Assembly: GCA_000310025.1 (NCBI GenBank)
Contig: FN649750.1
Coordinates: forward strand, 4,002,163-4,066,162
Origin: Ectocarpus siliculosus
Taxonomy: Eukaryota; Sar; Phaeophyceae; Ectocarpales; Ectocarpaceae
Length of the DNA stretch: 64,000 bases
Direction of reading: 5' to 3'
Position numbers and translations under genes: made by a program. Below the pieces are notes generated by a model. It did no database searches and had not been told where the DNA came from. It was given only the letters and a program-made list of their open reading frames with translations. Each line of letters starts with the position of its first letter. The first letter of the stretch is position 1. This document shows, in pieces, positions 5,604 to 33,833 of this stretch.

Positions 5604-5605
5604 TA

Positions 5606-5660
5606 TACACTATCGTTATTCGTGCCCATGGGTAACCATGGGCACATACGGCCACCAACG
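5606..5660 (-). repeat. Short CCATGGG palindrome unit with conserved edge
   Basis: CCCATGGGTAACCATGGGC is preceded by TATCGTTATTCGTG. The reverse complement of that edge matches the right edge of the unit at 19001-19072 (CACGAATAAGGATAATGTAC). MITE copy 1 ends at 5603 with its TA in the position of the GTACA end of this edge, so the MITE appears to have inserted into the unit's border. Confidence 0.65.
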
Positions 5661-6224
5661 GCCCACGGAGGACCGTAATGGCTTTCACCTCCACGGGGAT
5701 GGATCACAACGGGTACCAAGATTAAGCGTACTCTATAACATCGATTAGGCGGGGTCGACGAAGGCGCGGCCGCAGCGAGGTGGTACACCCAAGGTTCCGT
5801 GGGAGGCTCACAGCACAGCAGTTTGTGAGTCCAGCATTATTCCAGCTCGGCGCAAGAATGTAAAGAAAGAAAGGATACAACTGAACTGGCTTGGTGTGGG
5901 CGCGGAGGAAAGCGCGTCAGTGTGGCCTCACCCAGATCCACGGCGCTAGGCTCACCCAGGTCCACGGCGCGACGCTGAGGGCGTAGTCGCATCTCCCGTG
6001 TTTCGTACAGTGCACGCGCACGCCGAGGCCTTGGGCACGTCTCTTCATCATACTGACTTGTTTCAGATTTAAACGGTACGGTGGGTTTAGTTGTTTTCAA
6101 AGCTCCAAGACATGTTGTCTTTCCTTCGTCAGGACGAATAGGTCCCTTGGTGATCATCCCGAATACCCGTCGGCACCCGTAGGGTGCTACACCACCGATA
6201 CCAATGGATCGCTACCCACGGTTA

Positions 6225-6595
6225 TCACCAACGGGTGCCTGTGGCTACCCACGGTGACGACCATGGGCTAGCGTTAGGCATCAGTTTGGGTGCCCATGGG
6301 TCACCATGTGTGTGGCCATGAGTCATCATGGGCACCCATAGGCATTGCCCGTGGTAACCCATGGGTACCCATGGGCATTGTCTGTGGGAACCCATGGGTA
6401 CCCATGGGCATTGCCTGTGGGAACCCATGGGTACCCATGGGCATTGTCTGTGGGAACCCATGGGTACCCATGGGCATTGCCCATGGTGAACGTGGGTACC
6501 CACGGGGTAATATCACTTGGTTATGTATGGGTTGGGTACCCATGGGTACCCATGGGCATTGCCTATGGTGCACGTGGGTACCCACCGTGTAACTT
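6225..6595. repeat. CCCATGGG / GGTACC palindrome array
   Basis: Dense run of CCCATGGGTACCCATGGG words. The core (6353-6485) is a 33-bp unit repeated four times, alternating CATTGTCTGTGGG and CATTGCCTGTGGG between palindromes. Every unit contains NcoI (CCATGG) and KpnI (GGTACC) site words, and both strands are open in several frames (translations of the MGTHGYPWVPMGTHG type) simply because the array is palindromic. It is not treated as coding. The array fades into decayed units upstream to about 6180. Confidence 0.85.
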
Positions 6596-7729
6596 CACTT
6601 GGTTATGGGCCAATGTATCAAACATCTGCACCGAGACACAGAAATAAACGGAGAACCCCGACGCAATGAAGAGGGCCGCGGGGCGGGAAAGCTTCGGGTA
6701 TGGTTTGAAACCCTTTTGTCACCTGAACGGGCACGCACGAATGCGTGTATACTACCTCGGAGAGAGATACAAGTAAGGAACAGAACGTCAATTGGCAATA
6801 CGGGTTCGCTTCGGCGACGATATGAAACCCGGTATGTATGTCGTGACCATCTCGCGCCCACGTGGTTGAAACCCCCTCACGCTTCTTGGGGCGGGGTCGC
6901 TTCTGCCACGACCTGAATCTCTTACCCCTTGCTGTATATGCCCCATATTCGGCACTATTTGGCTCGGTCCTGAAGAACCACGAAGGAAATACTAACATAC
7001 GTAATGACGCCACAAAAAGACGATGATGTGAAAAATATATGAAGCCAAACACAGCACCATAGAAAATCCGCACTCGACACCTTCACGACGAACTCCGCGT
7101 GGGACATTGTAAAATATCGTCGTTACGCTGTGTACGACGCAACAAGGAAAAAAGATGTCGTCGGAACCAAGATATTGACAAGAAGTCGGAACCACGATGT
7201 TGACATACAAATGGCACATATCGTCCCGAGAACAGACAACACTCCCGCCAGGAAGGGAACCCATAACGGGAAACGTTGGCAATTTGCAATGTCAACTGTG
7301 CAATGGGACCAAAAAAACAACGACAACAACGTCAACCCATTCTAGTAAACCCACTCTAGGAAGAAACGTCGCCGATCAAAGTGAGATGACGCAGCTAGAT
7401 AAGAGGAAGCAACCTAAACGGCTCGAATGCACGTAAAGCAGCCCCATTAGGTAGCGCGAATGGTGTAACCATAACCAAGTGCATCCTTCAGCCCATCACT
7501 CCAGGACGTCTGTGCGGGTGGAATTCCACTCTGCTAGGTAGAGCGCACCAGGGAACTCGGATCGGTAGGAATGTTGGCCCGCTCTCGACACACCGTAGGA
7601 GGACGAAACAGATGGCAGTGGGAGCTGTACGGTTCCTGACGTCTACAACCTGCCGTTCCGGATGTATGTGTTGTGCGTGCTTCACTAACGGTCAAAGGTC
7701 GGGTGCTGGGACAACAGCATTTTGGTGAG

Positions 7730-10700
7730 CAGGAGCTCGTTCTTGAAGCAGATGTTGTTGTCCAAGACGAAACGGTTCAGCACCTTTGGCATGCGCATGA
7801 GGACATGTCGAAACCCTGGTCAACAAGAGAGGCATGCGTTTCAGAACAGGTGTGGGTAGTTAACGTAGTTGGAGGTACTTAGCCTTAAAGGATGAAACAA
7901 TACGGACTACGAGTGAGACAGTGAGGAAAAGACATCAACGGGGGTCTGTAATGACGGTGTTAAGCAGAAACTGGTATTGGTTCGACGCAGGGTGTATCTG
8001 ACGCACCGCTTAGCCACCCGTTGTTGGACTCGGCGATGGAGGAGTTCCAGCAGAACTCGGGTGGGTCTTGCTGCAAGTTTCACAGAAGAGGGTTGTTGTA
8101 GTCGTTTGGGTTGTTGAGGATAGAGCACGCAAGCTCCGTATGGCCCCGATAATGGAACCTGCCGGCGTCCATAGCAACGATATGCGCACAACGCGGGTAT
8201 TGGGTACGGCCGGGGTATGTGGTACTTAATTCCAAGTTGGAGTTCGGACACACTGTACACGTCACCCCCAACGCCACGCCAACTACAACTTAGAACGTCC
8301 AACCTGCTGCTGTGAGTAACTCACTATCAGGGAGCACGCCCTACTTTAGGCCGAGGTGTACGTAGTCTCTCGTTGAATTGCCCCGGGTGCTTTGGAAACA
8401 CCGGCCCACGTGTCACGTACCAGTCGACGATCAGCATCGTTCCAACCCAGGACAGATCCCCTCGGCCGCTCAGGTAGCGGTCCAGAACGCAGGCCTTGTC
8501 GTAAAAGAGGATGGTCGGGCGTCGATCCTCATCGGGAAAAATATGTTTCAGGGCCGCGTCCACATCGGCACATCCTTCCGCCTCCAAGAGGGGCACTATC
8601 CCGCAGATGATCCCGCAAGACCAGCTCGCGGAAAGACTCCCCCAGCTGCTCTTCCTTCCTAGAACTGCACGGAGCATCCTTATGTCCTCAGGCTATGTTG
8701 TCGGCACACACACGCACGCAGTGACAAGGGAGCAAGGGGTTTGTGATGGTGCCGATCAATGTGGCTTAAGTCCGGCTGCTCCCATCCGCGCCAGATTCGT
8801 TATGATACACTCGATACCGCCACGTTCAAAATAGGTTAAACCCGAAGCCTGCGGTGTCAGTGGGCTTCAATCGCAGGCCCTCCTACAGTGTATTCTTGGA
8901 GTACATGGTGATGTACACCCTCAACTGATGTTGGTGTGTGGAGCTTCTTTCTCAAGTCCATGCGGTGTGAGAAAAATCGTTCGCGTCGTCTGCCGGGCGC
9001 GTTCCGTCCTCGGCTGAGAACCCATGTCGGAGGGACCATCCCGGCCGGAACGCGCCTATTGTCCTGTAGCTGTGGTGGGGTTAGGAGTAGAGTTAGGGGT
9101 AAAATAGCTTGCTCTGTTCAAGGAAATACGTTGAGGTGGGTATTTTTCACCCGTGAAGCAGAGGGGCAGTCGATGCAAAAACCACGGCGCTTGTGCGAGA
9201 CTTTTTAGATTGGAACGTGCGCACATCACGTACGGGAGTACCTCTAACATTTGTTCTTGCTGAAGAAAAACCGGCACCCCTATCGGAACGGTTTTCCAAA
9301 AAAAAACTGCCAAAAATAAAGAACGCAAGGGGAAAGGGGTAACAGTTGTTGGGGTTCTGTAAAACGGGCCAGATGAAGGAGGAGGAGCCAAGCAGCTCTG
9401 TACCTTCGAAGAAGTCCAAAGACTTTTATTCAGACTCACGACGAAACACGTACTTGATAAGTAGTTGATAAGCCCTCCCGAACCCTCTGGTGATGTAAAG
9501 ACGATATCATGTCGGTAACCAATCACAGAGTATGCCACCGCCGCAATTGTTGTTTATGCAGAAACCCGACATCAAAAACCCTTCGTCGTACTTTGCTGTT
9601 TCATCCTAAAGGGGGGTGGGCGTAGCATGCGTTGATTCTACGACACCTCCTGGTCCAAGAAGCGCGCTCGCTGTACAGCAGTCCACGTAGCCTCCCGGTT
9701 CCTTCTGTAGAACTCGTCCTCCTGTGCCTTGTGTGCTGTGCACGATAGCCTGTTGTCCTCGCGATTGTTTCCGCAGGGCGGTTGTGCGACCCAGAACGCG
9801 CATTTGTGCCCGTGTACAGCAGCGTGGTCCTCGCAGTATCTGCCATTCAAAGATCAAAAAAGATCACGAAAAGACCTCGGCGTATCTTGATTATTGTTGC
9901 CTTCCTACGATACGCAGTTTGTGTTGGTTGCCGTTTGACTGGTCTCGCAGTGTATGGAAGACGTAGCTGGTTACGTTATGCATGCTGTTGGTGAGCCTCT
10001 GTGTCACGAAAACCTCAGCCATCGATCTAGCGTTGTACAAGCGGCACGCCTTACTATCCCAGAAAGCTAATCGACGGCGCAGCTGCCATCGTTTTTCCTC
10101 ATACCGATACGTCGATTAACGCGTCTCTCAGCAAGCGTGATGAACTTGGGCATGACGCTACCATTCAGGTAGCTTTAGCGACACGTATTGAACGTTGGTT
10201 GTGGTGATGATGCACGAATACGTGCAGCCTAGCGGCAAGGGCTTGGGACAGGGCTTCCGACGAGGGTTAGCTACTAGGGAATCGTGCTCCACCGTGTTTT
10301 CGCTCGACACTAAGTTGCAACGTACGTCTGCGTGGAGTGAAGCCCTTCAATGTCACGGTCACACTTGAAAGATCACGGGCTTGTGAAGGCGCGGGACGTT
10401 TGAAGGAGAGGGTGGTGTCGAGTTATATTTTGTGGGATCAACAGGCGTTACAAACGACGTTGATGGTTGGTCTGTGCGTGAGCTGGGCAAACAAAAAAAT
10501 TCCGGGAACCATGCGACAACAAAGGAGTGTGTGTACGGGGACATTCAAGTAACACTTAGCGCCCCCACCCACGGCGCCTCGAAAGTCAGGTCCATGTGAA
10601 ACACACGGCAGCGCCAACTAACGGCGATAACATCGAAATGCGCCTAACAAAGTCCCGGCAATAAAACGAGCTAAGAGTAAGGCATTCTCCGCCGAAAAAA

Positions 10701-11085
10701 AACACTTGCATACCTTGAAGTATCGCATGGACGTATGCCGTCTATCGCGGCCGCCTGCGTCCAGAAGTCCTGTCCCTCTATGGGAGTGTATTTCCGGCAC
10801 TGATCACAAGCGTGATCTACCCACGGGGAGTCCCTCCAGTACCTGTCGTTGAGCTCCTCCTCGACACGACGTAGCCCCGCCCAACTATTGCATCCTGACT
10901 GCTCACCTCTCTCATCAAACAAATCGACAGCCTTGGGATCCCTTGGCTTGAGTGCCTGGCCCGGCAATGCGTACCACTTGTGTGGACCTTGCACGCAATC
11001 ATAACGGAGAAATTTTGAGTAACGGCAAGCAAGACTGAGAACTTGAGTCAGCTGCCAGAACGATAGCTGAAGGCGACTCGCCATC
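7730..11085 (-). mobile_element. Decayed KDZ-like DDE transposon (transposase fragments)
   Basis: A series of minus-strand coding fragments appears in the order expected of a Kyakuja-Dileera-Zisupton-type transposase with CxC-type zinc motifs. In order: WVDHACDQCRKYTP (near 10830); RYCEDHAAVHGHKC followed by PCGNNREDNRLSCTAHKAQE (9640-9850); RMDLRKKLHTP with GVHHHVLQEYT (8860-8960); RPTILFYDKACVLDRYL and TMLIVDWYV (8400-8620); CAHIVAMDAGRFHYRGH (near 8180); and FCWNSSIAESNNGWLSGASD (near 8050). The fragments lie in different frames with stops between them, so this is a relic unless some of the gaps are introns (a GTATGC donor is present near 10725). Terminal repeats were not identified. A decayed host gene is the alternative. 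Confidence 0.45.
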
Positions 11086-12159
11086 GGTTGTCGGTTCTGT
11101 GTGAATAACCCTCCGTGCTGTAGAGGAGGCGCGGTCGTTCGTGTAACCGCTAAGGCTTGTCAAACATCTCCCACCCCCGGTAGGTGTCCCACCCCTTGCG
11201 TAATGACAGAGGGAAGACAAGAAGAAACAAACGATTGACTACTGCCAAATAAAAGGCTCGCACGCATGTCCCCTGCTCGGCGCTCCCTTATCCTTCCTAC
11301 GAGAAGTTACTGTTAACCTGTACCCGGTCGGATTGGGGATTGGGTGCTAAATTTTGTTCGCCGTCGATGAAAAATGTATTCCAATGCGGGGAGAGGTCTG
11401 CTGTGTTGTCACAACAGAATACAACATGTTGCAGTAAGGGGACAACGCAACTTTCTTACCGACATCATTTGCGGCCTTTAGCACGGCGTATATCTCCCTG
11501 CACTGCAGGAGCTCTGAACCCAGGAGGCGCAACTCCCGGCCGCCGCCGACGTCCGCGGCGGCCGTGTTGGAGTGCAGTTCAGCGTAGGAGTTGAAGCCCG
11601 CCCTGTCAGATATGCAACGTAGCAGCGATGTGTGCCACAGTAACCCACAGAGGGATGCTGGATCCTCTCCTCAGGAGTACCCTAGGCGATGAAATTTACC
11701 AGGGGCCGACATACGATAGAGAATCGGTAGAGTGGCTAACCAAGCTGAAGCCATCGACTGCGGTTGCGATTACTTGGTCGGCATGTACGTCCGCCCCTTC
11801 TTTTAACAAGTTCCACGACAACATGCACGGCGTCAGGATGATGTCGATTTCCGCGGACTTATGGTCCGCTAGCGGGCAAATCACATGTTCGCATGTTGCC
11901 GCCGAGTCACTTGCGTGTATTTCGGGCCAAGGATTTATTCGACTCGCCCATGGACGGAGTGGTGTGGCCGGCCACCGTTGAGGTGATGTCGTTCGTAATC
12001 TCGGATTTGAGACGCATCTAGATTTCGGAACGAAATCGGGAAGAGTCAGATATTCCAGAAAGGATGTTGGAAAATGACCCCACCTAGTTTAGTCCCCCTT
12101 TTCTCTCCCGAAATACACCGTAGCTATCGAGGAGAAGGGATATATTTGAGAGTCGTAAC

Positions 12160-14038
12160 ATGCCGCCTCGCAACACGCGGCGCTCCACGGCGGCGACTTC
12201 GGCGGCTGCTTCTTCTACAACGGCTTCCTCAGCGGCTGCGCCTGCTTCAGAGGCTTCTGCCCCGGCGGCGGCTGCCGCGGCCCCAGCGGCTGCCAGCGCG
12301 CCGATGGGACCGCTTTCCCTGCCTCCACCTGGGCTGCCTCCCCGGCCCGACCGCCAGACGGCCGCGTTTGTGGACGCGACCACGGCAGCCTACGCTCTGC
12401 CGTGCTACACGGCGCTGGTGCCGGGAGCAGGGGCAACGCTAGACCTTGGGCGGATGTTCGACCGCAACCGGCTCGGTTGCGATCAGGGCACTGTGGAGGA
12501 GCTGGTCCTCCGTTTGGGTGAGGTGGCCACTCGGCTGCCGCCCCTTCCCGGGGTGGAGACCTACACGGCAGTTTTGGCGCGCGCCAGGAAGGTGGCCACT
12601 TCGCGGGCGGGCGACAAGTCAGTTGCCTATCGCCAGGCCGAGGCGAAGAAGCTCCTGGCCGAGTACACTGTGGAACTCGCGCTCCGCCATGGCCGCCTCC
12701 TGCAGTCAGAAGGCTGTGTTCGTCGTGCCAGACGGAAAACGTGGGACATAACAACTATTGTTGATCCTGCGGTGTTCAGCCTGCCCGCGGGCGTCCGGTA
12801 CCGCATGACCCTCAAGCGGCTCGGGTGTCGATCGATTTCGACGCGCTGCGCGCTCGTGGTGATCAGGTCCTCTCGGCCGCGTCTAGCCGTCGTCCTCAAC
12901 AGTGCAAGTGCGCCGTAGCGGACGGGTTCGACGCTTTCATACTTTCGGCGACTGAACAACGTCGGGGTTGGAAGCAGGCGTCGGACCGAGACGTGTTTGA
13001 CTATCTCTGCTTCTTGGAAACACAAGGTAGTGGTCCAAGCGGGTGCACGACAGGGCATGCCCTGGTGTCGGCACGACTCACGGCCGCGATTGTCTTCCAA
13101 ACACGCCATGTGCTAAGCGGTATGCCGCCGCGTCCATGCAGAAAGGGATCGTGTCCAAGCTGAAGATGGCGATGCAAGAACAGTTGGGAAAAGACAGCAG
13201 CTGGGACCCTGCCACGCGCTCGGGCAACCCCTGTTGTAGTCCTCTCGTCGACTCCTACCTCGTCTTCACGGGGGAGGAATAAAAACGTGTGGGTGTCGCT
13301 GTCAACCAGGCAGAGGCTATGTTACCGCACGTCCTCATCGATCTGTTGAGGGACATGCGCTCTCGCGCGCAGACTGCGTCCTCTTTGGCGGAACGTATTG
13401 AGCCCACCAGGGACGTCGCTTTGTTTTCGCTGGCGTTCGCCTCCATGCGGCGAGGCCATGATCTCTCCTTCACTATGGGATCGCAAGTTCTGCGGTTGCC
13501 CGCGGGGCAGGGTCTTATGATTTTCAACTTCCAGTTTGGCAAGACCCTCCGGGACTCTGTTGATGCCGTGGTCGTGCGTCCGGACGTCGCTTGCCCGTCT
13601 ATTTGTGCGGTGAGCAATGTTACGGCCTACCTCAGTGCGGCGGAGCGTATTGACTGGGAAATGTCCCGAGGGCATCTGTTTCCTATCGTTCTGCTGGATG
13701 GAACTCGGGGCTGCGCTCCGCTTACGGCGGTTCAGATGACGGCTGCCCTACAAGGGCATTTCCGAGCGGCGAGACTGCCGCACCGCTACACTATGCACTC
13801 GTTCCGCGTCGGAGGTTCTGTAGCGCAGTCGCTTGACGGAACGGCGATGGACGCTATCATGAAAATTGCCGGGTGGCGCACGGAGAGTGTAGCGAAGCGA
13901 TATGTTGGCGCCACTACTAGCGTGGGGGAACCGGGTTCCAAGAGGACCCGTAGCGAGCTGTACGCAGACTCAAACGCGTTGCCGTTGTCGGCTGACTTCA
14001 CATGCGATTTCTCTGCGTGTGCTCGCCGCGAAAAATAA
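12160..14038 (+). mobile_element. Tyrosine-recombinase element fossil (Crypton- or DIRS/Ngaro-like)
   Basis: The N-terminal part is alanine-rich (starting MPPRNTRRSTAATSAAAS), followed by a helical region and then a catalytic region in the 3' third. The catalytic signature of tyrosine recombinases is visible: arginine in SMRRGHDLSF, HSFRVGG for the H-x-x-R box, GWRTESVAKRYVG for the tyrosine box. These enzymes cut and rejoin DNA through a tyrosine-linked intermediate and drive Crypton and DIRS-type elements. No reverse transcriptase was recognised beside it, which leans towards a Crypton-like element, but the family is not settled. The copy is broken, with about three breaks. An AATAAA follows the end of the frame. 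Confidence 0.65.
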
Positions 14039-14187
14039 AGAAAGTTTGGGTGGGCGAGACCTAGCTTAGAGGCGTGAGTGGTCAATAACTAAGATGTGAC
14101 AGATCGGATAATTAACAAGAAAGTAATGGGCGGGACCACAGACCGGCGCAGGAGGCCTCACCCAACCAAATCCAATACTTACATCGA

Positions 14188-15186
14188 ATGATCTGGGTAA
14201 GGGATAAGAATACAACAGGATCCGGCTACGAGAGCCGCTTCAACCAGCCACTCGAAAGTATCAGTATGCCTCCTAATTTGAAGCAACTTTCGCTAGAAAG
14301 CACATTCAACAGGTCCATCGAAGGTGTGACTTTCGTAGATTCCATCGAGGACATTCATCTAGGAGGATGTTTCAACCAGCCAATAGCCGCAGTCCGGTGG
14401 CCCAGTAGCTTGCAACGTTTGGCGTTTGGTACGTGCTTTGACCAGCCGTTGACCGGCTATCATTGGCCGGATGCATTGATCGCTCTGACGGCCGGTGAAG
14501 CGTTCCAGCAGAACCTGCTAGACGTTATCTGGCCTGATTCGCTGCAGTATCTCACCTTGGGGGGTGCGTGGAACGGGGGGCTGAGGCCTCCTGTGGTACT
14601 CCCTGCCACACCCAAGGTCCTACGGTTGGGGGGGAGTTTCAAAAGCCCAATACAAGGCATGCAGTTGCCTGACGGGCTGTAGGAGGTGTCGTTTCCCTTA
14701 AAATTTAACCAGGAGGTTGATGCCGTTCATTGGCCCAGGAACTTGCATAGGTTGTGTTCCCGGAAGATTTCGACGACATGGTTTCCGTCGAACGCGGTAA
14801 GTGGCCGTCCACGCTAGAAGCTTTCGAGTTTGGGTCAGGCTGCGGGTGGCGTGTAAGCGACACCACCTGGCCTACGAGCCTAAAGACGTTGGTGCTTGAG
14901 GGTAAGTTCAACACGAAGGTTTACACCTTGCAGTGGCCGCCTGGATTGGAGTCGCTTGCCTTCGGGGGATCATTCAATCACTCTCGAGTCATGCTGGGCT
15001 CCTACCCTGAAGGAGTTGTCGTTTGGCAAACGCTTCCAACAACCACTGTCAGGCGTACGTTGGCCGAGAGTTATAGTCGAACTGAGGTTTGACGGGATGT
15101 CTACAGGTGACGGTTTTACGTGTGGTTACATGTGGCCAAGGTCGCTGAAGAGGGTTCAGTTTAGAGATGCATCTTTGACTCGTTGA
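14188..15186 (+). pseudogene. FNIP/FNQPL leucine-rich repeat protein, pseudogene
   Basis: About twelve repeats of 22-24 residues follow the pattern FNQPL..V.WP.SL..L.LG, the FNIP-type leucine-rich repeat known from Dictyostelium and abundant in some stramenopiles. Clear units include CFNQPIAAVRWPSSLQRLAF, CFDQPLTGYHWPDALIALTA and RFQQPLSGVRWP. The first ATG is 14188. A TAG stops the frame at 14680-14682, yet the repeats go on directly after it in the same frame (EVSFPLKFNQEVDAVHWP). They then continue in two further frames (from about 14754 and about 15000) to a stop at 15186. So there is one stop and two frameshifts in a host-type gene. Sequencing errors cannot be excluded. Function of the parent family: presumed protein binding. 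Confidence 0.7.
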
Positions 15187-15419
15187 AAGGATAAACACTT
15201 GAAGCGCGCAGTACTATGCGGGGAAATGCCTGGTGGTGGCCAGCTCCATACTTCGTGATGAATGATCGTGGTTTTGTAGACCAGGGCACTCGAGCTCGTT
15301 CTGGCACGGTGGGGTGAAGAGGTTTACGAATGGCGCCCCGTGCATGTTCCGACGCGGGGTATTCCCTGGTTTTCTTTGTGGGACTTCAGTCGTTCGTGTT
15401 GTGCCACGTTTGTTTCTCG

Positions 15420-16269: not shown

Positions 16270-17125
16270 TCTACCACGAGCATTACCTTATTTTTTGCTC
16301 GTTTTATCCAAAGAACACTCCACACTTATTCCATTCGCCGTACACTGCGACACAACCCCGAACAACCACACACATGATCTACGTTATTACCAAAGTTGGG
16401 TGCACACGCTCAGCCTAGTTGAACTGCTGCGCAGCGTATCACCGTGCCCGCCGCAAAGTCTAAAAGGCCAACGGTGCTGCCCATGGACTCTGCGGTGACG
16501 CTTGGGGCGGCAGCAGCAATGGAATCAGCATGATGTACAAGATGTGGCCATGAACAAAGCGAAGAGTCGGGTTATTCGCTGTTGGTACGTACACCAAGGC
16601 TGTAAACTGCGACCGGGGCGGCAACTCACGGGCGCTAACCCTCACGCGCCCCCGATACCCCTTCGCTGGGGGGGACGCGACCCCGACCATAATGCCATCT
16701 GACTAGAGTAGCGTTTCCGGCTACCTGCCCTTGGTAGCTGATGACCTTCCGCTTGAAATACATGCTCGGGATCTTTACACTTCGTATATACGCATTTCCT
16801 CCGTCAGTTAGACTATATATACCGTCATATGTTGCTATTATAGGTGATGGATCATCGCCTTTCTTTGTCATGGGTGGTAAGCATAGCGCGGGTATGCATC
16901 CAGTTTACACGAGGTTGAACGGTAAGGACAGGCGCCGCAGGTGAATGGCTTACGAGTACCAGCCATGCGCAGTGTTGCATCGCGTTACCCGCTGTGTGCC
17001 CCCGAGAAAGAGAGTGGCTGCCGAGAGGAAGAAAATGCCGGGTGCCGAACCCAAAGTGTCCACAACGAGGAGTACGTATGCATACATCTAACAGAGGGAG
17101 TTTTGCAATTTCCAACGTCGTTCCC
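16270..17125. other. Stretch without a recognised gene
   Basis: Short open frames only, with no motif or splice pattern I recognise. A possible signal-anchor start (MSTEGSMRHILPKIAFVVLG) lies just upstream on the minus strand at 16247, but no downstream exon could be attached. Confidence 0.4.
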
Positions 17126-17130
17126 TAGTC

Positions 17131-17626
17131 TAGGTACCCACGCCCCAATGGGTGCCCATGGGCATTGTACCCATGGGTACCCATGGTGGGTACAATGCCC
17201 ATGGGTACCCATGGGTGCCCATGGGTACAATGCCCATGGGTACCCATGGGTGCCCATGGGTACAGTGCCCATGGGTACCCATGGTGGGTACAATGCCCAT
17301 GGGTACACATGGGTGCTCTGGGCNNNNNNNNNNNNNNNNNNNNNNNNNNNNNNNNNNNNNNNNNNNNNNNNNNNNNNNNNNNNNNNNNNNNNNNNNNNNN
17401 NNNNNNNNNNNNNNNNNNNNNNNCCAAGGGTCCCAAGTGCCATGGCCCTGGGTACCCATGGGTGCCCATGGGCGCAATGCCCATAAGTACCCATGGGTAC
17501 CCATGGGCATTGCCCATGGGTTACCACGGGTACCCATGGGTATGCCCATGGGCACGACCATGGGTACCCATGGGCAATGCCCATGGGTACCCTTGGGTAC
17601 TTGGGTATAGTCCGTGCACAACAATG
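17131..17626. repeat. Large CCATGGG palindrome array with an internal assembly gap
   Basis: Runs of CCCATGGGTACCCATGGG and CCCATGGGTGCCCATGGG interleave with short spacers such as TACAATG and CATTG. The right border (reverse complement ATTGTTGTGCACGGACTATA) matches the left border of the small unit at 19001 (ATTGTTGTGCATGGACCGTA), so the arrays share edges as well as core words. The 100-base gap inside suggests the assembler could not resolve the array, and its true length is unknown. Frames crossing it are not coding. Confidence 0.85.
17324..17423. other. Assembly gap (100 N)
   Basis: Exactly 100 undetermined bases within the palindrome array, probably a placeholder for a collapsed repeat. 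Confidence 0.99.
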
Positions 17627-18195
17627 AATCCATAAATTCCCCCAGCACAAATGACAACTTTTCTCTGCACACACGTGGTTGTTCCGAAATCTGAAAGTAC
17701 CAGCAAACGCCCTGTTTCCAGGCGCATGGCGTGACGGAGAGTTTGTTTTGTTGTTTTTTTCCTTGACTTTTTATCCCCGAAACACCTTTAAAACTTGATT
17801 CGTTTACACAGGGTGGTGTTTATTGCCGATGCCAAAAAACTCAACGGATTTGGACACACGTCGGAATTCTGCGGTTGGGGATTTTTTTTTTTTTTGTAAT
17901 TCTCGAAATTACAGGAGATATCAGAGAATAACTGAATGTAGAGGATCAACTTGATTCGTTTACAGCGCGACAACCACCCGACCGATTTCAAAATAAACAG
18001 TGGCAAACGATCCCTATCGTCGATCTACAGGTGGGGTTTTTGGGGTTTTGCTGGGAAAAATCTAGTTTTCGAGATAATCAACATGTTGTGCCGCACCATG
18101 GATGGGTGGGTGTGCTTTGGTGGGCGACACAACACGCACAAACAACTCTCGCACACGTTGCAGCCCGAAGAACACAAAATACCCACGCAAGCACC

Positions 18196-18507: not shown

Positions 18508-18674
18508 CTGCCTCCGAAAGTTTTGTATATATTAATTATATATAGAGTGATAGAGTGAAGTGTTGTGCATGCGAATAGACTGTGCATGTGTTTTCGTCCT
18601 GCATTGCGTGTATATTATTTATTACACTAGTGCGCGATCAGTTGTGAGTAAGAAGGGTATGGACGCGGGGAAAT

Positions 18675-19000: not shown

Positions 19001-19072
19001 ATTGTTGTGCATGGACCGTACCCATGGGTATGCCCATGGGTACCCATGGGCACGAATAAGGATAATGTACAT
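19001..19072 (+). repeat. Minimal CCATGGG unit with both conserved edges
   Basis: A compact unit: left edge ATTGTTGTGCATGGACCGTA, core of three CCCATGGG palindromes, right edge CACGAATAAGGATAATGTAC. The left edge matches (inverted) the border at 17605-17626, and the right edge matches 5606-5620 (inverted) and 33823-33833. This is the best template for what the element looks like before expansion. Confidence 0.7.
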
Positions 19073-20885: not shown

Positions 20886-23800
20886 CTAAACCTTGTTCTC
20901 AGCCTCGATGCTCCAATCGAGCATCCCGTTGCGGGTGATTTCCACGCCACTGTGGGAAACCCAGAGTTCATACGAGGGGTCTTTCGTGCGGTAGCCAAAC
21001 CACGAAGGTCCGGACTTGCGGGCGACTCTCGTTCCATCGACGGAACCCTCCTGCAATGGTTTATGAAACGTTTGACACAATGACCGAAGTTGAGAAGAGG
21101 GCGATCGGGTGTGATGTTGCCGGGCACATGTACCGTGAGCCCGGCCCATGCTAGTGGCATTTTGAAGCATTTGCTGGTCTGTTACGCCGGGTGGAGTCAC
21201 GGGGAGAACGATTTCTTGTCGCCAAACAGGTTTGCGAGAGCGACGTCCATTTGAGGCGGGAACTTCGCAGAAAATCTCTGCCTAGTTTCCATTTTCTGCA
21301 TGGGGCGTGGTTGATAGGAACAGGCAGTCTATTGAATATCTCCTACATCAACATGTCTTTTGTCACGTACAGCCATCTACAGCACTCGCACTTACCAGGT
21401 GACCCCTATTGGTCACATACAGGTTCACCTCGCCCATGTGGACCTTGGCGTGCTCTCGTGCTCGCCTCCGAAGAAAGCCGCCCTTACCGAACGGCATCCA
21501 CCCGGCAATCGTTGCCAGGGCCCCTCGCTTACCGCTCTTGCCCTCGGCCTGGGCTGTCCTCTCGTGCAGCTCTTCCGCAAGGAGCTCCGCACGGATGGCA
21601 GACCTCTTGGCGACCTTGCCAGGGTCCGATGCCACCAACGTTGTGATCGTCTCCGGCGTCGGGCCCGTCACTCGGCCGTCAGCATCGCGTGGGGGTTCGC
21701 CCGTAGCCTTGGCGAAAACAATGGCACCGTCCTCACGGCTGGCGAATATCCGGGAGCCCATGGTGGGGCTCATCAGGGTGCCGGTCAGTACCTCCCCGAC
21801 CTTCAGCGAAAGTGCTGGGTGTACCTTCATGTTCGGAGAACGGGCCGATTCCTCATCGTCTCTCGTCTCACCACCGCCGCCGGTACCGCTGCCGCCGGTA
21901 CCGCTGCCGCTTCTGCCGTCGTTGCTGCTGCTGCCACCGCTGCCGCTGCTGCCGTTGCTACTGCTGCTGCCACCGCTGCTGCTGTCGCTGCTAGCGTGAG
22001 GAAGGGATGAGGGGAGATCGCCGCTGCCGCTGCTGCCACGGTTGCTGCTGATGACAAAGTTGGGCGACGGGATGGGGACCGGTGGGGTTTGGTGAATTGA
22101 CGGTTGATCCTCGATGTCGGCGACTGTGGTGGTCTCAGCAGGGTAGCTGCCGTCACTCGCAACGGGAATCGTCGCCTCGTGCGCTACAGGGTCGGCGATG
22201 GCGGCAGTGGGGGGCGCGGGTTCCTTGTCGGCCTCATCCAGGCCAGCCCTGGCGTGGAGCTCAGCGTGGAGCTTAGCCAACACCTCCCGTTTGGTTGTGG
22301 TTTCCAGCAGCAAGAAGCCATCCGGTTCGGTCCCCTTGATCTGGTGTTTTCGATTGTAGAAGACGTACCAGTGCAGGCAGTGAAGGGACAGAGAGGTGTG
22401 CGGCAAGGACGGAGGGAACAGCGCGGGGAAATTTCTATTAGGAGAACAAGGTTTCCCATGTCGTTTTTCGTCGACGTAGCAGGTGCATGGGGGGAAAGGC
22501 TGGGAAATAGAACAATGAAGGGGGCAAGTGGTAGTGTGTCTGCGCTCGTTACTCTGCGCAAAGGGGGTAGAGGTAGCGTGTCGCAAAAGAGCGGAGACGA
22601 CTTCCATTCTCTGTTCCTTCTTTAGCAAAGAGCGGCAACGAAACGAGACTCACCGGAAACGACAACAACTACACGCCGGCAGGGGGACGAGTCTTTACCG
22701 ACGACAAGCGTGTATCGACCATATGTATGCGCATAACCAATTTCGATCTTCTCCGTACCCAGCGCGCAGCCTCTATGCTTTTCTTAACAGCTGACGCGAC
22801 ATGTTTTGACATTTGGCGGTCTCGGCAAATGTTTCATCCCAATTACATACCTCGTTGGCGGTAGGGATCTTGGAGACTACCATCGAATGCTCGGTGAACC
22901 TAACCATGGTGTTTCTTGACTGGAACAATCCCTCAGCACCCTCCCACACGATGGTGCGCTTGTCCTCCTGCGTGAACATGGGCGGATCGATGGGGCGTTG
23001 AGGGCAGGCAGCATACAGAAAGACTGCATTTATTCGTCGAGAACAGAAACGCGTCCGGGAGTACGTACGAATGAACCCGCCATCAATATTTGTAGGCATA
23101 TCGAATGAATCGTGTCCTTTTCAAACCCAAGACCAGGAAATCCGAATGCTCTCTCTGCCCACACGGTCTGTACGAGAAATGACAACATCCGAACGCGCGT
23201 TTTGAAACTTCGGTGTTTTGGACTTGTCCCCGAAGCGTGTTCTCCCTCTACAAATGAAGCACACCGATGATGTCCAGTGCAGGTACTTCCGCAAGTTTTT
23301 GTATCAGAAGTATTTATACCAATAATCCATCGAGAAACGAGGTGAATGGGATCCATGCCCTCAACGAATGTCTGAAGGGTTGCAAAGTCTACAAAACTAC
23401 AGACGCAGATCCAAACAGAAGTCAGCGCGAGCACATGTAGTGATGAGCTATTGTTTCTGGTTGAATAGTGCGCCTGAACACAAAGTTCGACTGGGAGGAT
23501 GAAAGGAGCGAAATGCGCCGCCCTTACCTCGGCCGCGCCGGCAATAGAAGGGATGTAGTCGGTGACGTGCAGGTTGAACCGGCCATGGGCCATGATCAGG
23601 TGCAGATGCGGGGGCATATCCTGTCGGACGACAAAACAGGACAAGCCGGTCGTCGTGCTGGTGTTCATTTGCGTGATGGTGTTGTTGATGTTGCCCTTGG
23701 CAGTGCTGCTCTGCCGCGGTTGCTGCTGCTATTACCGCTACCGCTATTTTCTCGCTTCTGCTAATGCTGATGCTTCCTGCAAACCATAACAAACTCGACA

Positions 23801-25584: not shown

Positions 25585-25625
<41 letters not shown>

Positions 25626-25690: not shown

Positions 25691-26069
25691 TGTGATGAAG
25701 ACCGTGTTATGCACCAGTCGATGAGATCGCCAAACACAAAAAGAGTCTAGCTCCCAAGACAAGCGCGAATGGTGTGGCCTGCGTGGGGCGTGCCTGGGGC
25801 GTGCGCGGAGAGACGGAGTATCATCAGGATACCACCAAGATCTCAGCCACGGTATCCATATTTCACTGGCGTTCAGTTCTTCAGATGAACTCGAATACCC
25901 ATCCAAAAGGTTGGTTTCCTCATCACCGTAGACAAATTGATAACCGAGTCCTGAACCCTCCGATCGGGACTTTTTTCCTCGAACGGGTAGTCTTTGTATT
26001 GCTGTTTGGAAGAGCGTTCTTCGAAGAGAAGACCCATCCCACATGTGAATGAACGAACATTGTCGCGGT

Positions 26070-26165
26070 TTCCACCCACTTACAACATTGCACCAGTTGT
26101 ATGTACATAGTTTCCACGGATGAATTCGAATCCACATCGTCGGGTTTGTTACTCCATCGCACTTG
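26070..26165. repeat. Member of a dispersed family with GGTTCCCACCCAC core
   Basis: GCGGTTTCCACCCACTTACAACATTGCACCAGTTGT...GGATGAATTCGAATCCACATCG matches 33838-33960 closely. More diverged relatives carrying the same core appear at 27330-27470, 28590-28660, 34040-34130 and 34300-34370. No coding capacity was seen. Confidence 0.6.
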
Positions 26166-26323
26166 GTACTAGGTAGGGCGGAGTATTAAGCCGCGGGGTA
26201 GCCGACTCAAACCTCGCAGTAGTCAATCTTTTGTGCGATGGCGGGTGGCAGTCGGTCATAATAATAAATACTCAATAGCTCCTGCAACGAACGGCCGTGT
26301 TGTCGCGTGTGTATGCAGCAGTA

Positions 26324-26541
26324 CCTTAGGCGACACAAGATACCACACCCCCTGGACCAATTTCAAAGGTCCCACCAATTTCAAAGCTCGGTTGTCCCAC
26401 CCAAAAAGGAGTGGCGGTGCCGATAGTGTTGATGTGAAAACCGTCTCGTCCAGAGCTTTCCAACAACATCTTGCTGGGTGTACGCATCCTCTTCGACGTG
26501 GCGTCCTCGAGCTTCAAAAAGCGGTGCAGGGGGGGTGTTTA
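26324..26541 (-). mobile_element. Diverged copy of the TA-flanked MITE family
   Basis: Starts after TA with CCTTAGGCGACACAAGATAC, carries the TTTCAAAGCTCGG inner terminal repeat, the AAAACCGTCTCGTCCAGAGC interior and the CATCCTCTTCGACGTGG block of copies 1 and 2, and ends in a G-rich GGGGGGGTGTTT. Older than the copies at 5387 and 45513. Confidence 0.7.
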
Positions 26542-27459
26542 TTTTCGCAACATACTGTTGACGTCATCCAGACGTTCCCCCAGTGATTTGGGGTTTCGGT
26601 GGTTTCTCTGCACAGGGTGACGCAACAGCAGCTGTGAAACTATTCCCCACGAGCGGTGTGTGTGCAACGTCTTGTGTGGCGGCTATTGGAGAACATGGGG
26701 CCATAGGACCCACGGAACCTGAGGTGGCGAGAGTCGGCAAAATGCATGCATGCGAGAAAGAACACCGGCCGTGGCAGGCACTGGTTTGTTTCAAGGTGAT
26801 CCCTCCCTACCCACCGAAGCAGCAGCAACGTCAATGGCATCCGCCACGAGCTGTGTGCATGGCTCCCTTCCCTCGCCAGCGCTGTCTTGCGCCTCCCAGG
26901 GGTGTTGAGTATTTCAACTGCGTGACTGCTTCTGCGGGTGTTGGAGATCTCCGGGTTTTTGGTCCTCAATGTAATTCCTCTACAACTCCGCGGGGATCGG
27001 GGTGAGTATCTCCTAGACTACATGTGTTTGGTGTTTAGGGTAATTGTGAAATGCCGGTGAAGCACGGCCATCTGCTGTTGGAGCACGACCAAACCGGTGT
27101 GGTAAAGAGCACCCTATTTTTCTTGTTCCTCACACATGCCTCACACGCCAGTACATCGACAATCGGTGCTCTATAGGCCTCGTGCTGGTCGATAAGGGTA
27201 CGATTCGGGCAATCGTTTTTATTGGAAGTTGGGTCCCTGGTAGATAGAGCCTGTTTTTTCCCTCCTTCGAAGGAGGGAAATAATTGTCGCGCTTCGCGTT
27301 CCGCGGCTCCTTAAAACTACCCACCTTTGACATGCGATTGAGGATATTTTGGTTGTATGGACTACATTATTTTTGAATATGACACTTTCGAAAATGATTA
27401 ATCATATCAAGTACGAATCAGCGACCTTTAGTGATTCCCACGCACACGAAACCTAACCT

Positions 27460-27612
27460 GGTTGTTATTGTTGTTGTCTTCACATGAAAAATAAAATTCC
27501 GTTCTCTCTACCTAGTACCCTCTTCTGTCGGTACTAGTAGTCTAACACTTGACGCAGTCGATTCCCGTGGTCACAGGCTAACTTACCCAAAGAGGCTACG
27601 AAACTAAAATGG
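27460..27612. repeat. Dispersed repeat, copy 2
   Basis: Partner of 24055-24232 (see that entry); identity looks about 80 percent by eye. No gene is recognised in the surrounding 26600-28200. Confidence 0.7.
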
Positions 27613-28250
27613 ACCAGAAGTGTCCGGAAGTCAATAGAAATAAACGACAGAGAGTCTAGGACACTCCGCTCGCCTCTACACACTATGCGAGGTACCCATA
27701 GACTGGGACAAAGAAAGAAAAAGACAAAGGAAGAGAAGAGAGCAGATGGGAAGAAGGGAAAGAGACAGAGAAATAACACAGAGAAGACACACGCCGGAGT
27801 CACTACCGTAGCGACAAACAAACAAAATCAAGCACAACAACACAAGACAACACAAAACAACATACCGCAAGGCGGGCCACCCCAGACAGCCAAATTTTGC
27901 ACGTCATCGTCCGTGGGGGGTTGGTGCAATGAATGGTGCAGTGACGGGAAGGGGAGGGGATAAGTTATTCAAGGGGTTCAATCCGGCACAGCTTTTCGCG
28001 CCACTCGGTCCGCCTGTTCGCTTTTCCTGTCTTCCCTCGCCGTCTCGTCTGTCTTCCTCACCCGTCCCTCCCCAGTGGTTGTTGCCGTGTCCGTGCTGTT
28101 GCCGGGCGTCTTGTTTCGTTTGAGCGCTCGTTGTCGGCAAGATTCCTCTTCTTTCTTGTGCCAGGAGGTCATGAACCTCTTAGCTCCCTGCAGTACCCCC
28201 GTTTGCCACGGTACACCCCGCTCCACCTTCGCTGCTTCCATCCGAGTTGT

Positions 28251-28368
28251 TTAGGGGACTCCGAAGGCGCATGGCTCGATATCCGTAGATCCGTGCTCTG
28301 CCTCGAACATCTTAGGGTCTTCCTTCAGGCACTTCGGCCGTTTTTTCTTCGGTTGCCCCCTTCCTGGG
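28251..28368 (-). CDS. Short AT-hook-like fragment
   Basis: Minus-strand frame PGRGQPKKKRPKCLKEDPK followed by MFEAEHGSTDIEPCAFGVP and a stop. The basic core resembles an AT hook. It is followed in another frame by a charged stretch (28241-27978). No start codon or splice partner was established. Probably a scrap of a gene or transposon. Confidence 0.2.
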
Positions 28369-29526
28369 CCCTCCCCCCCCCACCAGCTCGCCAACTATCA
28401 ACCGTTTCCGGAGTCGCGCCAGTCGATACATATGTTGTTTCTTCGGATTCGAACACGCATCATGATGTTTTCTCCCTCATTGCTCGCAGAAACGACTACA
28501 CGCTCGGCCTTCGATTGGAGCCATTTTTCTAGTTTCTCGGGTGGGTAGCGCCTCGAAGTACTGGTTGTGGCTGTACTCCTGTACTTCGTACTATAGAACA
28601 TGGTTCATCCGATATGAATCAACGAACTTTCGAGGTGTCAACCCACGTACAATATTGAACCAGTACAGTGACCCGCCGCTTCCCATAGCGCCGTGCCTTG
28701 TCGCCCCTCTCTCTCTCTCTCTCTGCATCCCAGCATTGACAATAGAAAAACGGTTGGAGGCGGGATGACGGAAAGCATGCTCAGCGGACGTCGTTTGCTA
28801 CAGACGAGATGTCCATGTGGCAGAAGACCGCACACGCACGCGTTGTGTAGTGGGCCAAGATCAACGTTTGAACTGCATGTACTCCATATGTACAGTACTT
28901 GAGTGAAGCGGAGAGAATGCACCAGGGGCCTGACTCCATTCCATGCAAGTGTTAGATTTGAGGGGATGCGAGGTGTCGACAACCATTGGAGGCTCTAGCA
29001 GATCGCCGGAGCCAATATGTCCAGCCAGGTGGGTTTGACTACAGCAACCAGTATCAGAGAGCTATATGCCTCGCGACGAACTCCCTTCCCACGCACCTAC
29101 CAGTCGGTGCAGTGGGTTCGGCAGTGTGCCCAAATACTCACCCAAATTTTCACTTTTATTTGAGAAGTCATGCGATTGGAGGGGGTCTCAGGTGCCCTCA
29201 AGCTACTTCTGTTTCAAGCATCAGGTTGGGCTGCAAACATGTGCCATGCGTTTACGGCGTACCGGGAGCATGGGATCTGCATGAGAGAGAAGTCAGTCGG
29301 TCTCAAAACCACCGACCTCGCCCCTGTCATACGAACAACACGTAAAACTCCGAATGCCCGGATTCCAAGTGGACACAAACACGCCAAGTATTGGTTTCGC
29401 CTCCAGTTGCATGCTCCCCCACCACTTGTGGGAGAGTCCCTCCTAAACCAACAGGGTACAGTTTCCCCCGCCAACGAGTAGTGAGCTTTCGAACCGGAAA
29501 CGCCACACACATGTATGGTATATTTA

Positions 29527-30271
29527 TTGTTTTTCTTTTGAATTGCCTTGATTAATATTTTCTGTGGCGTATGGAGGGAGACTTCCCCCGTACCACACGT
29601 CCCGCATGGCACAAAGCCTCCGCGGTATCCTAACGTGTCTCTGCTACTAAACACAAATCTCCCTCCGAATACCACCAGACGGGACGAAACTGTTGTACAG
29701 TAGCAGTCTCGGACGATTGAGCCTCCCAATGGTACGCTACCATTCAGAAAACACCCCGTGCTACGCTAACTTGCTTCTAAATAGCAAAGGTGGCTCCTCC
29801 GAGTCACAGAAAATATTAAGAGGCCTCCTTCAAAGTGAGCACTCACTCGTAACATATCTCCTATCCCCCACCTTCGAAAGAAAAGGGGTGGGTGGGCGGG
29901 AGAAAAGCCACGACATGATTGCTAGCTATCGTCCAAATTTCAATGTAGCTAGCTGCTGCCCTTCTCTGCCGATTGACCCCAAAGCGGGCTGCATGGTACA
30001 CATTGTGTCTTTCTCACAACGTGACCCTTGGGTCCAGTGGACAAGCGTCTATCAAACTCTTGCCGCAGGAGCAGCGAGGCAGCAGAATGAGAACTCCGTA
30101 AGACCTTTCTCTTTTTGGGACCCCAGAAAACCGAACCAAGACATCCGAACCAACGCGCCTCCAGGGCGGCACAACAAGAACCCAAATACACACGTAGATC
30201 AGGGAGATGTTCCGAATTCTTCCGTGCACAATAAACTAGAGTTTGTTCGGCCTTCGACAACAAACTTTCAT
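29527..30271. mobile_element. 745-bp insertion in copy B, flanked by a 4-bp direct repeat (possible solo LTR)
   Basis: Copy A has a continuous TATATTTACCCTACAACG. In copy B this is split after TTTA by 745 bp and resumes after a second TTTA, giving a TTTA-TTTA (or 5-base ATTTA/TTTTA) target duplication. The insert contains no recognised coding region. Ends near TG and CA could fit a solitary long terminal repeat, but no matching second copy lies in this window, so the class is open. Confidence 0.6.
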
Positions 30272-31559
30272 TTTATCCTACAACGCAGACACGCCGAACA
30301 TTCGACCTCCAGGCAAGCCGCAAGAATGAAAAGAACGCCGTTCAACTTTGGCAGTTGTCCGTCGGGGAAGCTTACCTGCTTGTTGTTGGGGTTAGTCCTG
30401 AGAACTGTCCTGAGAACTTGTAGCAGATATTCCTGCGCCTGTCGAGTAGAGGAACGACGTGGGTAGGGCAGGCAGGCAGGCGTCGAGGTCAACCGCGGCA
30501 CACGCAACGACAACACAGCAGGACATTCTGCCACCTCCCGTGAACAAGTGTCTGCGCCCCGATCCGTCCATCACTGTTGGCATTTAGGCACTCCTCGTGA
30601 CACCCACACCTTGGACAAACTCCCCATAAGACGTTGTCACACAAAAAGCCGCTCAAAGGTTTGACTGTACACCACACGAGGAGCGTTGAAAGTTAAGATA
30701 GTGTGTTTTGCCGCATATTCTGTTGAGTGACAAAGGGCTGACGCACAGTGCTGTCACGCCTCTTTGCGCAAGCACCAGACAATCAGAGGGAGCTGCTGCG
30801 TCCCAGTACCCACACCAACTGGCGATCATGAAGGCAACCCGAGGACCTAGCTGATTCACATCTATGTGTTTGAAACCTCGACCGATCATGCAAATATAAC
30901 CACCGTCCAAACGTCCCAACAGACATAGATCAAATATGCTGAGGAAGCCACAGATGCCGAAAATCGCATTAGGTACAACACACGGGTGGCAGAGCTACAG
31001 ATTATTCCTCACCAAAAAACGTGACTGTCGCCCATGGCGGCAGTAGAATTGTCTCGTCAAGAGCTTTCCGAAACGTGGGCATCCTACTTGTCATAGGGAA
31101 ATCGAGCTTTGCAGTTCGGACTTTCAGCGGTGCCATTGGGCTTATCCGAAAGCACAACGCTGCACGAAGAAGGCACGCTGACGTGTATACTAGCGTGCTG
31201 ATTCCCGAGCACAGAACAACTCGTCATTACGAACATAGCGGGAGAGAGGTGAAACAAGCCCCGATGTTTCTCGTGCCCTGCCGGGCAAAGGGAGACGATC
31301 AACTCACTCATCAAACAAACACACAGGCAAGGGACATGCATGTGTGCTACGGGCTAGCCGTAGATGACCAAGAGGTGCAAGGAGGCGGTTCGAAGTGGAA
31401 AAGGCTTTAAACAGATAAGCGAGACACGACAGAAAGGTAGCTCTGCAAAACTGGTGCAGACTAAGCTGGGCGGTGGTCCAGCTAACCAATGAGGAAAGGA
31501 GCCGCACGTCGCCGAACCAAGCACTCCTTCAGGCCACATTTGTCCATCTTCACTGACAT

Positions 31560-31674
31560 TTTACGTCGCTGTCCGGCCCCACCCCCTCAAACTCACCCCC
31601 GCCAATGCCGCTGCCTTTGATCTCATCCACTCTGCTTAATATCGTAGTTGGGTGCAGATAGCTCGTTTCATCAC
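31560..31674 (-). pseudogene. RPC4 last-exon relic, copy B
   Basis: After an acceptor-like GACGAAATGCAG the sequence reads VMKRAICT, as in copy A, then diverges from the TPDFEQL ending of the readable gene. All upstream exons are missing because the copy ends at 31955. Same decayed state as copy A, so the damage probably predates the A/B split. Confidence 0.65.
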
Positions 31675-32469
31675 CTGCATTTCGTCGGTGATGCAGCGAC
31701 CGGTGGGGGTTCAGGTGCGTGCACGCGAGCGGAAGGGATCAATGAAAGAGTGAAAGAGGCAGGGGGGCTCGGCACGACTACGTAGGTTTACGAGTATTCA
31801 TAAACGCGTTGTGGGTGTGTTCGTCATCAAACCGCGCGTTGAACAACCATGTAAACTACCAACATCTCGCATCCTGTGCGAAGCTGTGGTGTATCTGGGT
31901 AGGTAGGGTTGCATCGCAGCAGTGCCGACACCTCCTGTACGTTCCGTCGTATAGGAGGAGCTAGGGTTAAGGATTGGCCCCCCCGCCCCCCAATGGGGCT
32001 GGGGGCCAACATCCAGGCCGGATGGTGGTGAGTGTCCGGGAGGAAGGAAAGAAGAAGAAGAAGGGGAGAGGATTTGTAGGGGCGGGAAGAAGGGACGGTG
32101 TTGGAAGAGGCAAGGAAGTGGTGAAGAATTTCGGCACTCAACGAGCACGCGGTCCCGTCGGGGGTGAAAGGGACATGTCAGTCCGAAGTCTTGTCTATCG
32201 GTAATCGAAAAGCCGAAAAATCGAGGTATACATTGTGTACATAACGATGGAGAAGGCCTACGTGGAAGGTACGAAGAGAGAAAATTGCACCCCACGTTCG
32301 AAGTCGGTGTGAATACCGCCGCAAGGAAGTCGTGCGAAGAGAACAAAAAAAAACGGAGACGTCGACGCTTGCGTCGTGGAACGATCCTTCCGTATAACGC
32401 AGGTACTCACCAATCCAAGACGGGGAGGTAAAATACCCATCGTGAAAGTCAAAGCGCAGGTCATAACCG

Positions 32470-32695
32470 CATATACAGATGGCGCCCGCACTTAAGAACA
32501 TCTTAATTTGCGTGAGGCTGGGGTTCTTAGTTGCCTGTTGAGGTTGCGAATGGCCATTATATAGGTTTTAGTGTGAGGTTCTTAACGGGGACCACTAAAA
32601 TACGCTCATGTTCATGAGTTTTGGATTTTTTGAGCCTCATGTTCTTAACAGGTAGGTTCTCAAGTGCGGGCGCCATCTGTATATGACTCATGCGT
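32470..32695. mobile_element. Second MITE family, 226 bp, TA-rich ends
   Basis: Terminal inverted repeats of about 28 bp: CATATACAGATGGCGCCCGC at the left and its reverse complement GCGGGCGCCATCTGTATATG at the right, with one or two mismatches further in. The interior repeats the word GGTTCTTA several times. Target is probably TA. No transposase frame. Single copy in this window. Confidence 0.85.
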
Positions 32696-33199
32696 GGAGA
32701 AGTTACCACGGAGACTTATCAACAAGACGTTTGAAGGCCGGCTGAGAAGGTTTGAAGACACAAGCCCTTAAGCGACGATGGCAATCGCAACGGCAGGAAG
32801 CTGCCGTGACAACACAAGTACCTCGACACTCCTATCACGACTTCTATGTACGTACCACAGTATTTCGTAGTAGTATATACGATTGGAATATCCCCAAGGA
32901 GAGCCTTTGCGGGGCAACAACTGCAGAGAGAGCGGGAGCTCCGCGTGTACCTGTTGGTGGACATGTGGCAGGCGCACGACACGCGAACGGATGCTTGCAT
33001 CGCATAGTAATAATAGTAGTATGTCTCGCCGTCGCAGAAGGTATCCCATCCAGTCATGGTCGTTGCCTGCCGTACTAGGCGGACGTCGTTCGGCGTCTGG
33101 TCCACACTGCTGTGAAGCAAAAAAAGTGATCAAGTATGCATGCACGCAATTTTTTTTCTCGTTGTTGCAGGAACACTTGGTTCCATAAAGAACCTTTTG

Positions 33200-33475
33200 G
33201 AATTATTGCCATGGAAACCACGGAAATGTGTCATGAAGGGCCATGGAACTTGTGGCAAGCCATGGAAATTTCCGTGGAAAGGCCATGGAATATTCCATGG
33301 ATTCCATGGAAAATGCCACGGAGTCCATGGAGTCCATGGGCCTCCATGGGATATTCCATGGAAACCTACGGAATTCCATGGAGCTCCATGGAGTGCCATG
33401 GAGTGCCATGGAACGTTCCATGGAGCTCCACGGAACTCCATGGGGCTCCATGGAACTCCATGAAATATCCGTTCT
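33200..33475. repeat. CCATGGAA / TTCCATGG palindrome array
   Basis: More than twenty CCATGG words interrupted by AATTCCATGGAGCTCCATGG-type spacers. It is a sister of the CCCATGGG arrays but with A/T flanks, so the word is TTCCATGGAA rather than CCCATGGG. Open frames such as HGAPWNSVGFHGISH come from the palindromic unit and are not coding. Confidence 0.8.
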
Positions 33476-33589
33476 GTCCATTCGTTTTACAGAAGAAGTG
33501 TTCTCGGAGGAAGCCAAACGCATCGACCCTCACGCCAAAACAAAAACCAATTTGGATTTCTTTCTAAAAGCCTATTATCATGCAATACC

Positions 33590-33833
33590 GCCATGGACGT
33601 CCCGTGAAAACCCATGGGACGTCCCATGGGTTCCCACGGTAAAAACGCCCATGGTGCGTCCCATGGGTGCCCACGGAACCTATGGACCGCCCACGGGCCC
33701 ATGGGGCGCCCCATTACAGCCCATGGGTACCCATGAGACGCACCACATGGGCATTTTCCCCTTGGGAAAACCCATGGGACGTCCCATGGGTTCGGGACCC
33801 ACGGGTTCCCATGGGACGCACAGGATAATGTAC
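33590..33833. repeat. CCCATGGGACGTCCCATGGG palindrome array
   Basis: Repeats of CCCATGGG joined by ACGT (AatII-type GACGTC), TTCCCACGG and TGCCCACGG. The right border ACGCACAGGATAATGTACA matches the GGATAATGTACA border of the unit at 19001-19072. The site lies about 115 bp right of the preceding array, so two variants of the same motif are nearly adjacent. Confidence 0.8.

Follow-up and report, generated by a model that had tools for sequence, protein, structure and literature searches.

CCATGG palindrome arrays with partly shared borders in Ectocarpus siliculosus: a candidate small dispersed unit

Did the clusters of CCATGG palindromes in a 64,000-nucleotide stretch of the Ectocarpus siliculosus genome (NCBI GenBank assembly GCA_000310025.1, contig FN649750.1, positions 4,002,163 to 4,066,162 of the forward strand; hereafter the window) each grow in place, or was a unit carrying the palindromes copied between sites? 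A first-pass annotation had listed arrays and short units built from CCCATGGG at five places, described their borders as conserved, and proposed a mobile unit that carries and expands the palindromes. The arrays, the short units and the border matches were all found again where it had placed them. Dispersal of a unit is supported by the evidence set out below, and movement via a defined mechanism is not supported. We propose that a small unit with a palindromic core, now diverged, was dispersed a few times and that its core expanded locally, an account that has, in our estimate, an even chance of being right.

The excess of palindromes is clear. The window holds 43 copies of CCCATGGG, compared with 1.46 on average and never more than 4 in 100 order-1 simulations, and 95 exact copies of CCATGG (simulated mean 21.4, maximum 34). 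All but one of the 43 (42 copies) lie inside the five places listed earlier, the lone stray being at 37397. Six arrays or units were delimited, with 2 to 23 exact CCATGG cores each (Table 1); array A, directly left of array B (33590), was absent from the earlier list. When one mismatch is allowed, core density peaks at 11, 12 and 14 per 150 bp in 6126-6625, 17051-17675 and 33126-33900, respectively, and 20 simulations gave at most 7. Density reaches 5 at 5551-5700 and 22851-23025, the level of most simulations, and stays below 5 at the 19001 unit. Because the short units are not outstanding in density, the case for them is their sequence.

Table 1. Palindrome arrays and units, followed by other features of the window
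Feature	Position	Strand	Remarks
Unit E	19001-19071	+	Sole copy with both borders; exact border matches; fold z=-3.35
Unit E, layout	19001-19071	+	Left border 19001-19020; three CCCATGGG palindromes 19021-19050; right border 19051-19071
Unit F	5604-5643	-	Two CCATGG palindromes (one is CCCATGGG) and right border; fold z=-3.18
Array C	17131-17626	-	23 exact CCATGG cores; left border 17606-17625
Array C, assembly gap	17324-17423		100 N
Array D	6202-6595	.	13 exact CCATGG cores; 33-bp higher-order unit; repeat family of C, E and F
Array B	33590-33834	+	10 exact CCATGG cores, different spacers; partial right border GGATAATGTACA at 33823-33834
Array A	33209-33465	.	17 exact CCATGG cores, TCCATGGA type; flanking letters unlike other arrays
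Mariner-like miniature inverted-repeat transposable element (MITE)	5385-5605	.	217 bp plus TA on each side
FNIP repeats	14116-14682		E=1e-20
EsV-1-7 cysteine-rich motif frame	46705-48225		E=1.7e-5, at the curated cut-off of 25 bits

Evidence for a shared unit includes the borders themselves. In a scan of the window with up to 6 mismatches allowed, the left border ATTGTTGTGCAYGGACYRTA is found exactly at 17606 (minus strand) and 19001 (plus strand), and the 21-nt right border CACGAATAASGATARTGTAYA exactly at 5604 (minus) and 19051 (plus); the next matches to either have 5 mismatches. The last 12-13 nt of the right border are also present at 33823. The 12-mer concerned, GGATAATGTACA, occurs exactly twice in the window (19060 and 33823), never with 1 mismatch, and six more times with 2 mismatches, one of these overlapping unit E. 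The left border thus adjoins two of the six arrays and the right border three.

The sharing was quantified by comparing the 12 array-end flanks of 45 nt in all 66 pairs against 20,000 random pairs. Three pairs stand out: the left flank of unit E with the right flank of array C (p=0.00025), the right flank of unit E with the border side of unit F at 5606 (p=0.00035), and the right flank of unit E with that of array B (p=0.0006). Two weaker pairs, the left flank of unit E with the right flank of array A (p=0.007) and the two array A flanks with each other (p=0.018), were not counted, since they are at chance level for 66 tests. Among 3000 random sets of 12 flanks, three pairs scoring at least 28 were found in 2 sets, two in 9 and at least one in 209. 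This null is strict in that the random flanks contain true repeats of the window, and lenient in that the array ends were set by hand after the borders were known, so the p values are somewhat flattering. Plain minisatellites would have unrelated flanks between arrays; three related pairs, a number reached in so few random sets, are what was found here. The sharing described earlier is real, though incomplete.

The remaining ends are at background level. The p values against the left and right borders are 0.73 and 0.33 for the left end of array B, 0.56 and 0.15 for the 17131 end of array C, and 0.42 and 0.19 for the other side of unit F. For array D they are 0.20 and 0.33 at the left end and 0.13 and 0.39 at the right end; for array A, 0.20 and 0.19 at the left and 0.20 and 0.59 at the right. 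Alternative inner edges, tried at two array ends, gave p values of 0.15 to 0.73 against the borders.

A second line of evidence comes from the letters between the cores. When the 18 nt flanking each of 68 exact cores were compared with the CCATGG core excluded, C, D, E and F formed one sequence family, with mean similarities of 0.58-0.65 between arrays and 0.59-0.67 within them; for C and D the value is 0.59 between arrays and 0.59 and 0.62 within. Flanks that are equally alike between and within arrays are as expected from common descent. Similarity to this family falls to 0.38-0.43 for array B and 0.32-0.37 for array A, which shares with it the CCATGG core only. Moreover, units E and F align over 39 nt (5606-5644) at 92%, core and right border included, and the alignment stops there; unit E also aligns with array C both ways round, over 38 columns in one orientation and 45 in the other. 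Array-specific homogenisation was considered, as similarity across the six arrays is 0.55 within and 0.43 between (reached in 0 of 500 permutations), but this difference is driven by A and B. Upkeep of the dyads was not detected in the spacers: 120 of 214 spacer pairs are complementary against a shuffle mean of 122.0, and 76 of 156 against 77.4 when distinct spacers are counted.

Taken together, the unit or one end of it recurs at separate places with the register between border and core fixed, in both chromosomal orientations, and with no alignable DNA further out. Constant register and orientation relative to the core, occurrence on both strands and the lack of any extension into the flanks argue that a unit spread and that the satellites did not each grow independently; this is the part of the mobile-unit proposal that holds up. 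The ancestor may have been a non-coding unit of about 70 bp, with the left border, two or three CCCATGGG palindromes and the right border, as at 19001. It would have been copied to new places by a process at the DNA level, either with a transposase or Rep protein supplied in trans or through break-repair copying at hairpin-prone DNA. The palindromic core would then have grown locally by slippage or unequal exchange, because a single strand carrying perfect palindromes can fold back on itself. One or both borders may since have been lost through growth and decay in five of the six arrays, or may never have been there. The repeat is taken for a putative inert or selfish one, with no sign of a host function, for which no test was made.

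Several observations weigh against the spread of a bordered unit, and it is here that the first-pass annotation overstated the regularity of the borders. Both borders occur together in one array of the six (19001-19071), three arrays have a single border and two have none. At array B the full 21-nt right border has 8 ungapped mismatches; 13 contiguous border nucleotides are present (16 of 18 overall) next to spacers that differ. At least one matching flank pair arises in 7% of random flank sets. As array A shows, CCATGG palindromes can form an array in the absence of these borders. Target duplication outside the borders, looked for at units E and F and array B, was above chance at none of the three (longest shared outer-flank word 4 nt, p about 0.8), a weak result because the ends of the element are uncertain. 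Finally, the left border of unit E and its inverted right border agree in 12 of 18 columns (p=0.09), which is not significant for a terminal inverted repeat, although the right flank of unit E gives p=0.037 against the left border.

Several of these points would fit a palindromic minisatellite without any mobile unit, the strongest alternative, which we consider possible but rather unlikely. The arrays would grow by hairpin-templated slippage, break repair would occasionally copy pieces of them elsewhere, and the borders would be scraps of array edge. Array A, with unlike spacers and no border, is what such a process would be expected to leave, as are the rarity of paired borders and the absence of target duplication at E, B and F. 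The folding strength of the array pieces agrees with hairpin-templated growth and equally with the spread and local expansion of a unit: single-strand folding is stronger than in shuffled sequence in all nine chosen pieces (z from -3.2 to -10.2) and very strong in two overlapping parts of array A (z=-6.2 and -10.2). Such folding is expected of any palindrome array, and function is therefore not shown by it. Two observations speak against the minisatellite: unit E is short yet complete, having both borders, and the right border recurs three times, once partially, always in the same orientation to the palindromes.

No empty site was found within the window. A paralogue (26055-26168, 80% identity) of the stretch right of array B (33841-33958) was considered as an empty site and rejected, because the two stretches tried to its left show no alignment above background. 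In favour of a unit, borders lacking palindromes were not seen: apart from the sites already named, the window has nothing within 4 mismatches of either full border. At unit F, the MITE adjoins the right border and is inserted at a TA on its outer edge; when it is removed, the letters beyond the border weakly resemble, by eye, those beyond unit E. These comparisons gave no significant terminal inverted repeat, no target duplication and no empty site.

Canonical Helitrons end in CTRR at the 3' end. This motif is absent from 61-63 nt at four of the five borders, those of unit E at 19001 included, and array B has one CTGA, with the ends of the element again uncertain. A non-autonomous Helitron or Helentron (HINE) with a tandem core, like Cg_HINE of the oyster or DINE-1 of Drosophila, would share the plan of conserved flanks, a variable tandem core and no target duplication seen, and Helitrons account for 1.10% of Ectocarpus genomic DNA (Table 1 of PMC12477816). 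Nevertheless, the nearly complete lack of CTRR, the non-significant subterminal inverted repeat and a length of only about 70 bp make this explanation very unlikely. We judge it likewise very unlikely that the unit is a cut-and-paste MITE whose terminal inverted repeats, with TGTRCA close to each end, have decayed: TGTGCA close to one end of unit E and TGTACA close to the other, the 12 matching columns of 18, the resemblance of the right flank of E to the left border (p=0.037) and the abundance of DNA transposons in Ectocarpus (PMC12477816) are offset by the p value of the direct left-right comparison and by the lack of target duplication at three of three places.

Searches beyond the window say little where they found nothing, because the collections hold no known brown-alga genome. 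In the viral contig collection, an array 20-mer, the left border, the right border alone and the MITE end each gave 0 matches. CATGGG joined to the right border occurs in five viral contigs, with CCCATGGG counts of 0, 0, 1, 0 and 0 in the DNA examined. Triple CCCATGGG occurs in 12 viral contigs with other spacers, and these were judged unrelated by eye. The genome contig collection gave a single isolated 20-mer in a KSB1 metagenome-assembled genome, with two CCCATGGG in 3909 bases. No match was found for part of array C (17130-17320) among phages or for unit E among plasmids, and three array 15-mers had no match in a literature search.

A coding origin of the arrays was also considered. Several frames on both strands are open through array C, and one of 201 codons spans A and B. 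However, the repeat step (about 10 nt) is not divisible by 3, and Pfam gave no match to the 201-codon frame at E values up to 1. The open frames are taken for a lack of stop codons in the sequence.

The window as a whole has 53.8% GC. ARAGORN, run with the bacterial code, detected no tRNA in it, Rfam gave nothing at gathering scores, and seven of the nine translated frames scanned have no Pfam match at 0.001. The two others are listed in Table 1; the EsV-1-7 family is typical of brown algae, and in content the window resembles nuclear DNA from that group. Next to the FNIP repeats, frames at 12124-14038 have a C-terminal part resembling tyrosine recombinases (Phage_integrase, E=0.27, short of the curated cut-off) and are perhaps part of a DIRS/Ngaro or Crypton element. 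Colinear repeated blocks at 1-3653, 26055-31958 and 33841-39501, in up to three copies at 69-94% identity, look as of a segmental duplication or large element. A further repeat family at 49790-51581 and 55049-55423, near a 75-N gap, has two direct copies (88%) and one inverted (84%).

The MITE next to unit F has an inverted copy at 45511-45731, identical at 213 of 217 nt, and diverged partial relatives lie near 3587, 26322, 35764-35861, 39444, 59372 and 60072. TcMar-N1_Ec32, a mariner MITE of Ectocarpus, is 217 bp long (PMC12477816) and equal in length, the one feature compared.

Should the palindrome unit prove mobile, it would link the dispersal of palindromes with the origin of satellites within a single element of a size convenient for study. 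Otherwise, the locus remains a clear example of palindromic minisatellites, which seemingly spread with short edge pieces. The lineage is one whose repeats are still partly unclassified: the Ectocarpus survey lists 94 "Unknown" families (PMC12477816, Table 1). The palindrome unit may or may not be in the repeat library of that survey, whose main text has no word beginning palindrom, hairpin or minisatellite.

Comparison with known systems bears on the first-pass statement that no family with this structure was known. That statement was too strong, as elements in which conserved flanks enclose an expandable tandem core (Cg_HINE, PMC7492417; DINE-1, PMC2374699) and dispersed palindromes in Volvox (PMC2670323) have been described; the view that shared borders need explaining was sound, and the unlikeness to known elements was overstated. 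Bacterial REPINs (PMC3116915) are similarly miniature palindromic hairpin units found across a genome, but they are bacterial and linked to RAYT transposases. A eukaryotic nuclear counterpart, in the form of a brown-alga family of mobile units of about 70 bp with unlike borders, whose CCCATGGG core would be the hairpin recognised during movement and would also seed local expansion, is conceivable though quite unlikely. A palindromic repeat arrangement in Fusarium (PMC7218506) has likewise been proposed to be mobile; it is mitochondrial and has A and T runs, unlike the units described here. The short palindromic repeats of Volvox carteri form hairpins, are dispersed and are regarded as selfish DNA. 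Compared by description only, they differ in proliferating in organelle DNA and in being thought inert in the nucleus, and the available text describing them is without mention of outer borders of this kind.

Satellite junctions have been treated in molluscs (PMC5139131). The closest published plan that we met is that of Cg_HINE. DINE-1 of Drosophila has conserved blocks around central repeats that differ between species. Cg_HINE of Crassostrea gigas, a satellite-carrying non-autonomous Helentron, has conserved flanks, a variable satellite-like tandem core, no target duplication and copies in both orientations. It also has features of its own, namely subterminal inverted repeats of 11-12 bp, a microsatellite within its left flank, a palindrome at the 3' end and flanks 50-100 bp long, whereas the units described here have borders of about 20-25 nt, subterminal inverted repeats that are unsupported, and a core in which 8-nt palindromes recur about every 10 nt. 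Any likeness to the oyster element would be in plan only, with flanks around a tandem core, and both flanks are present here in one array of six.
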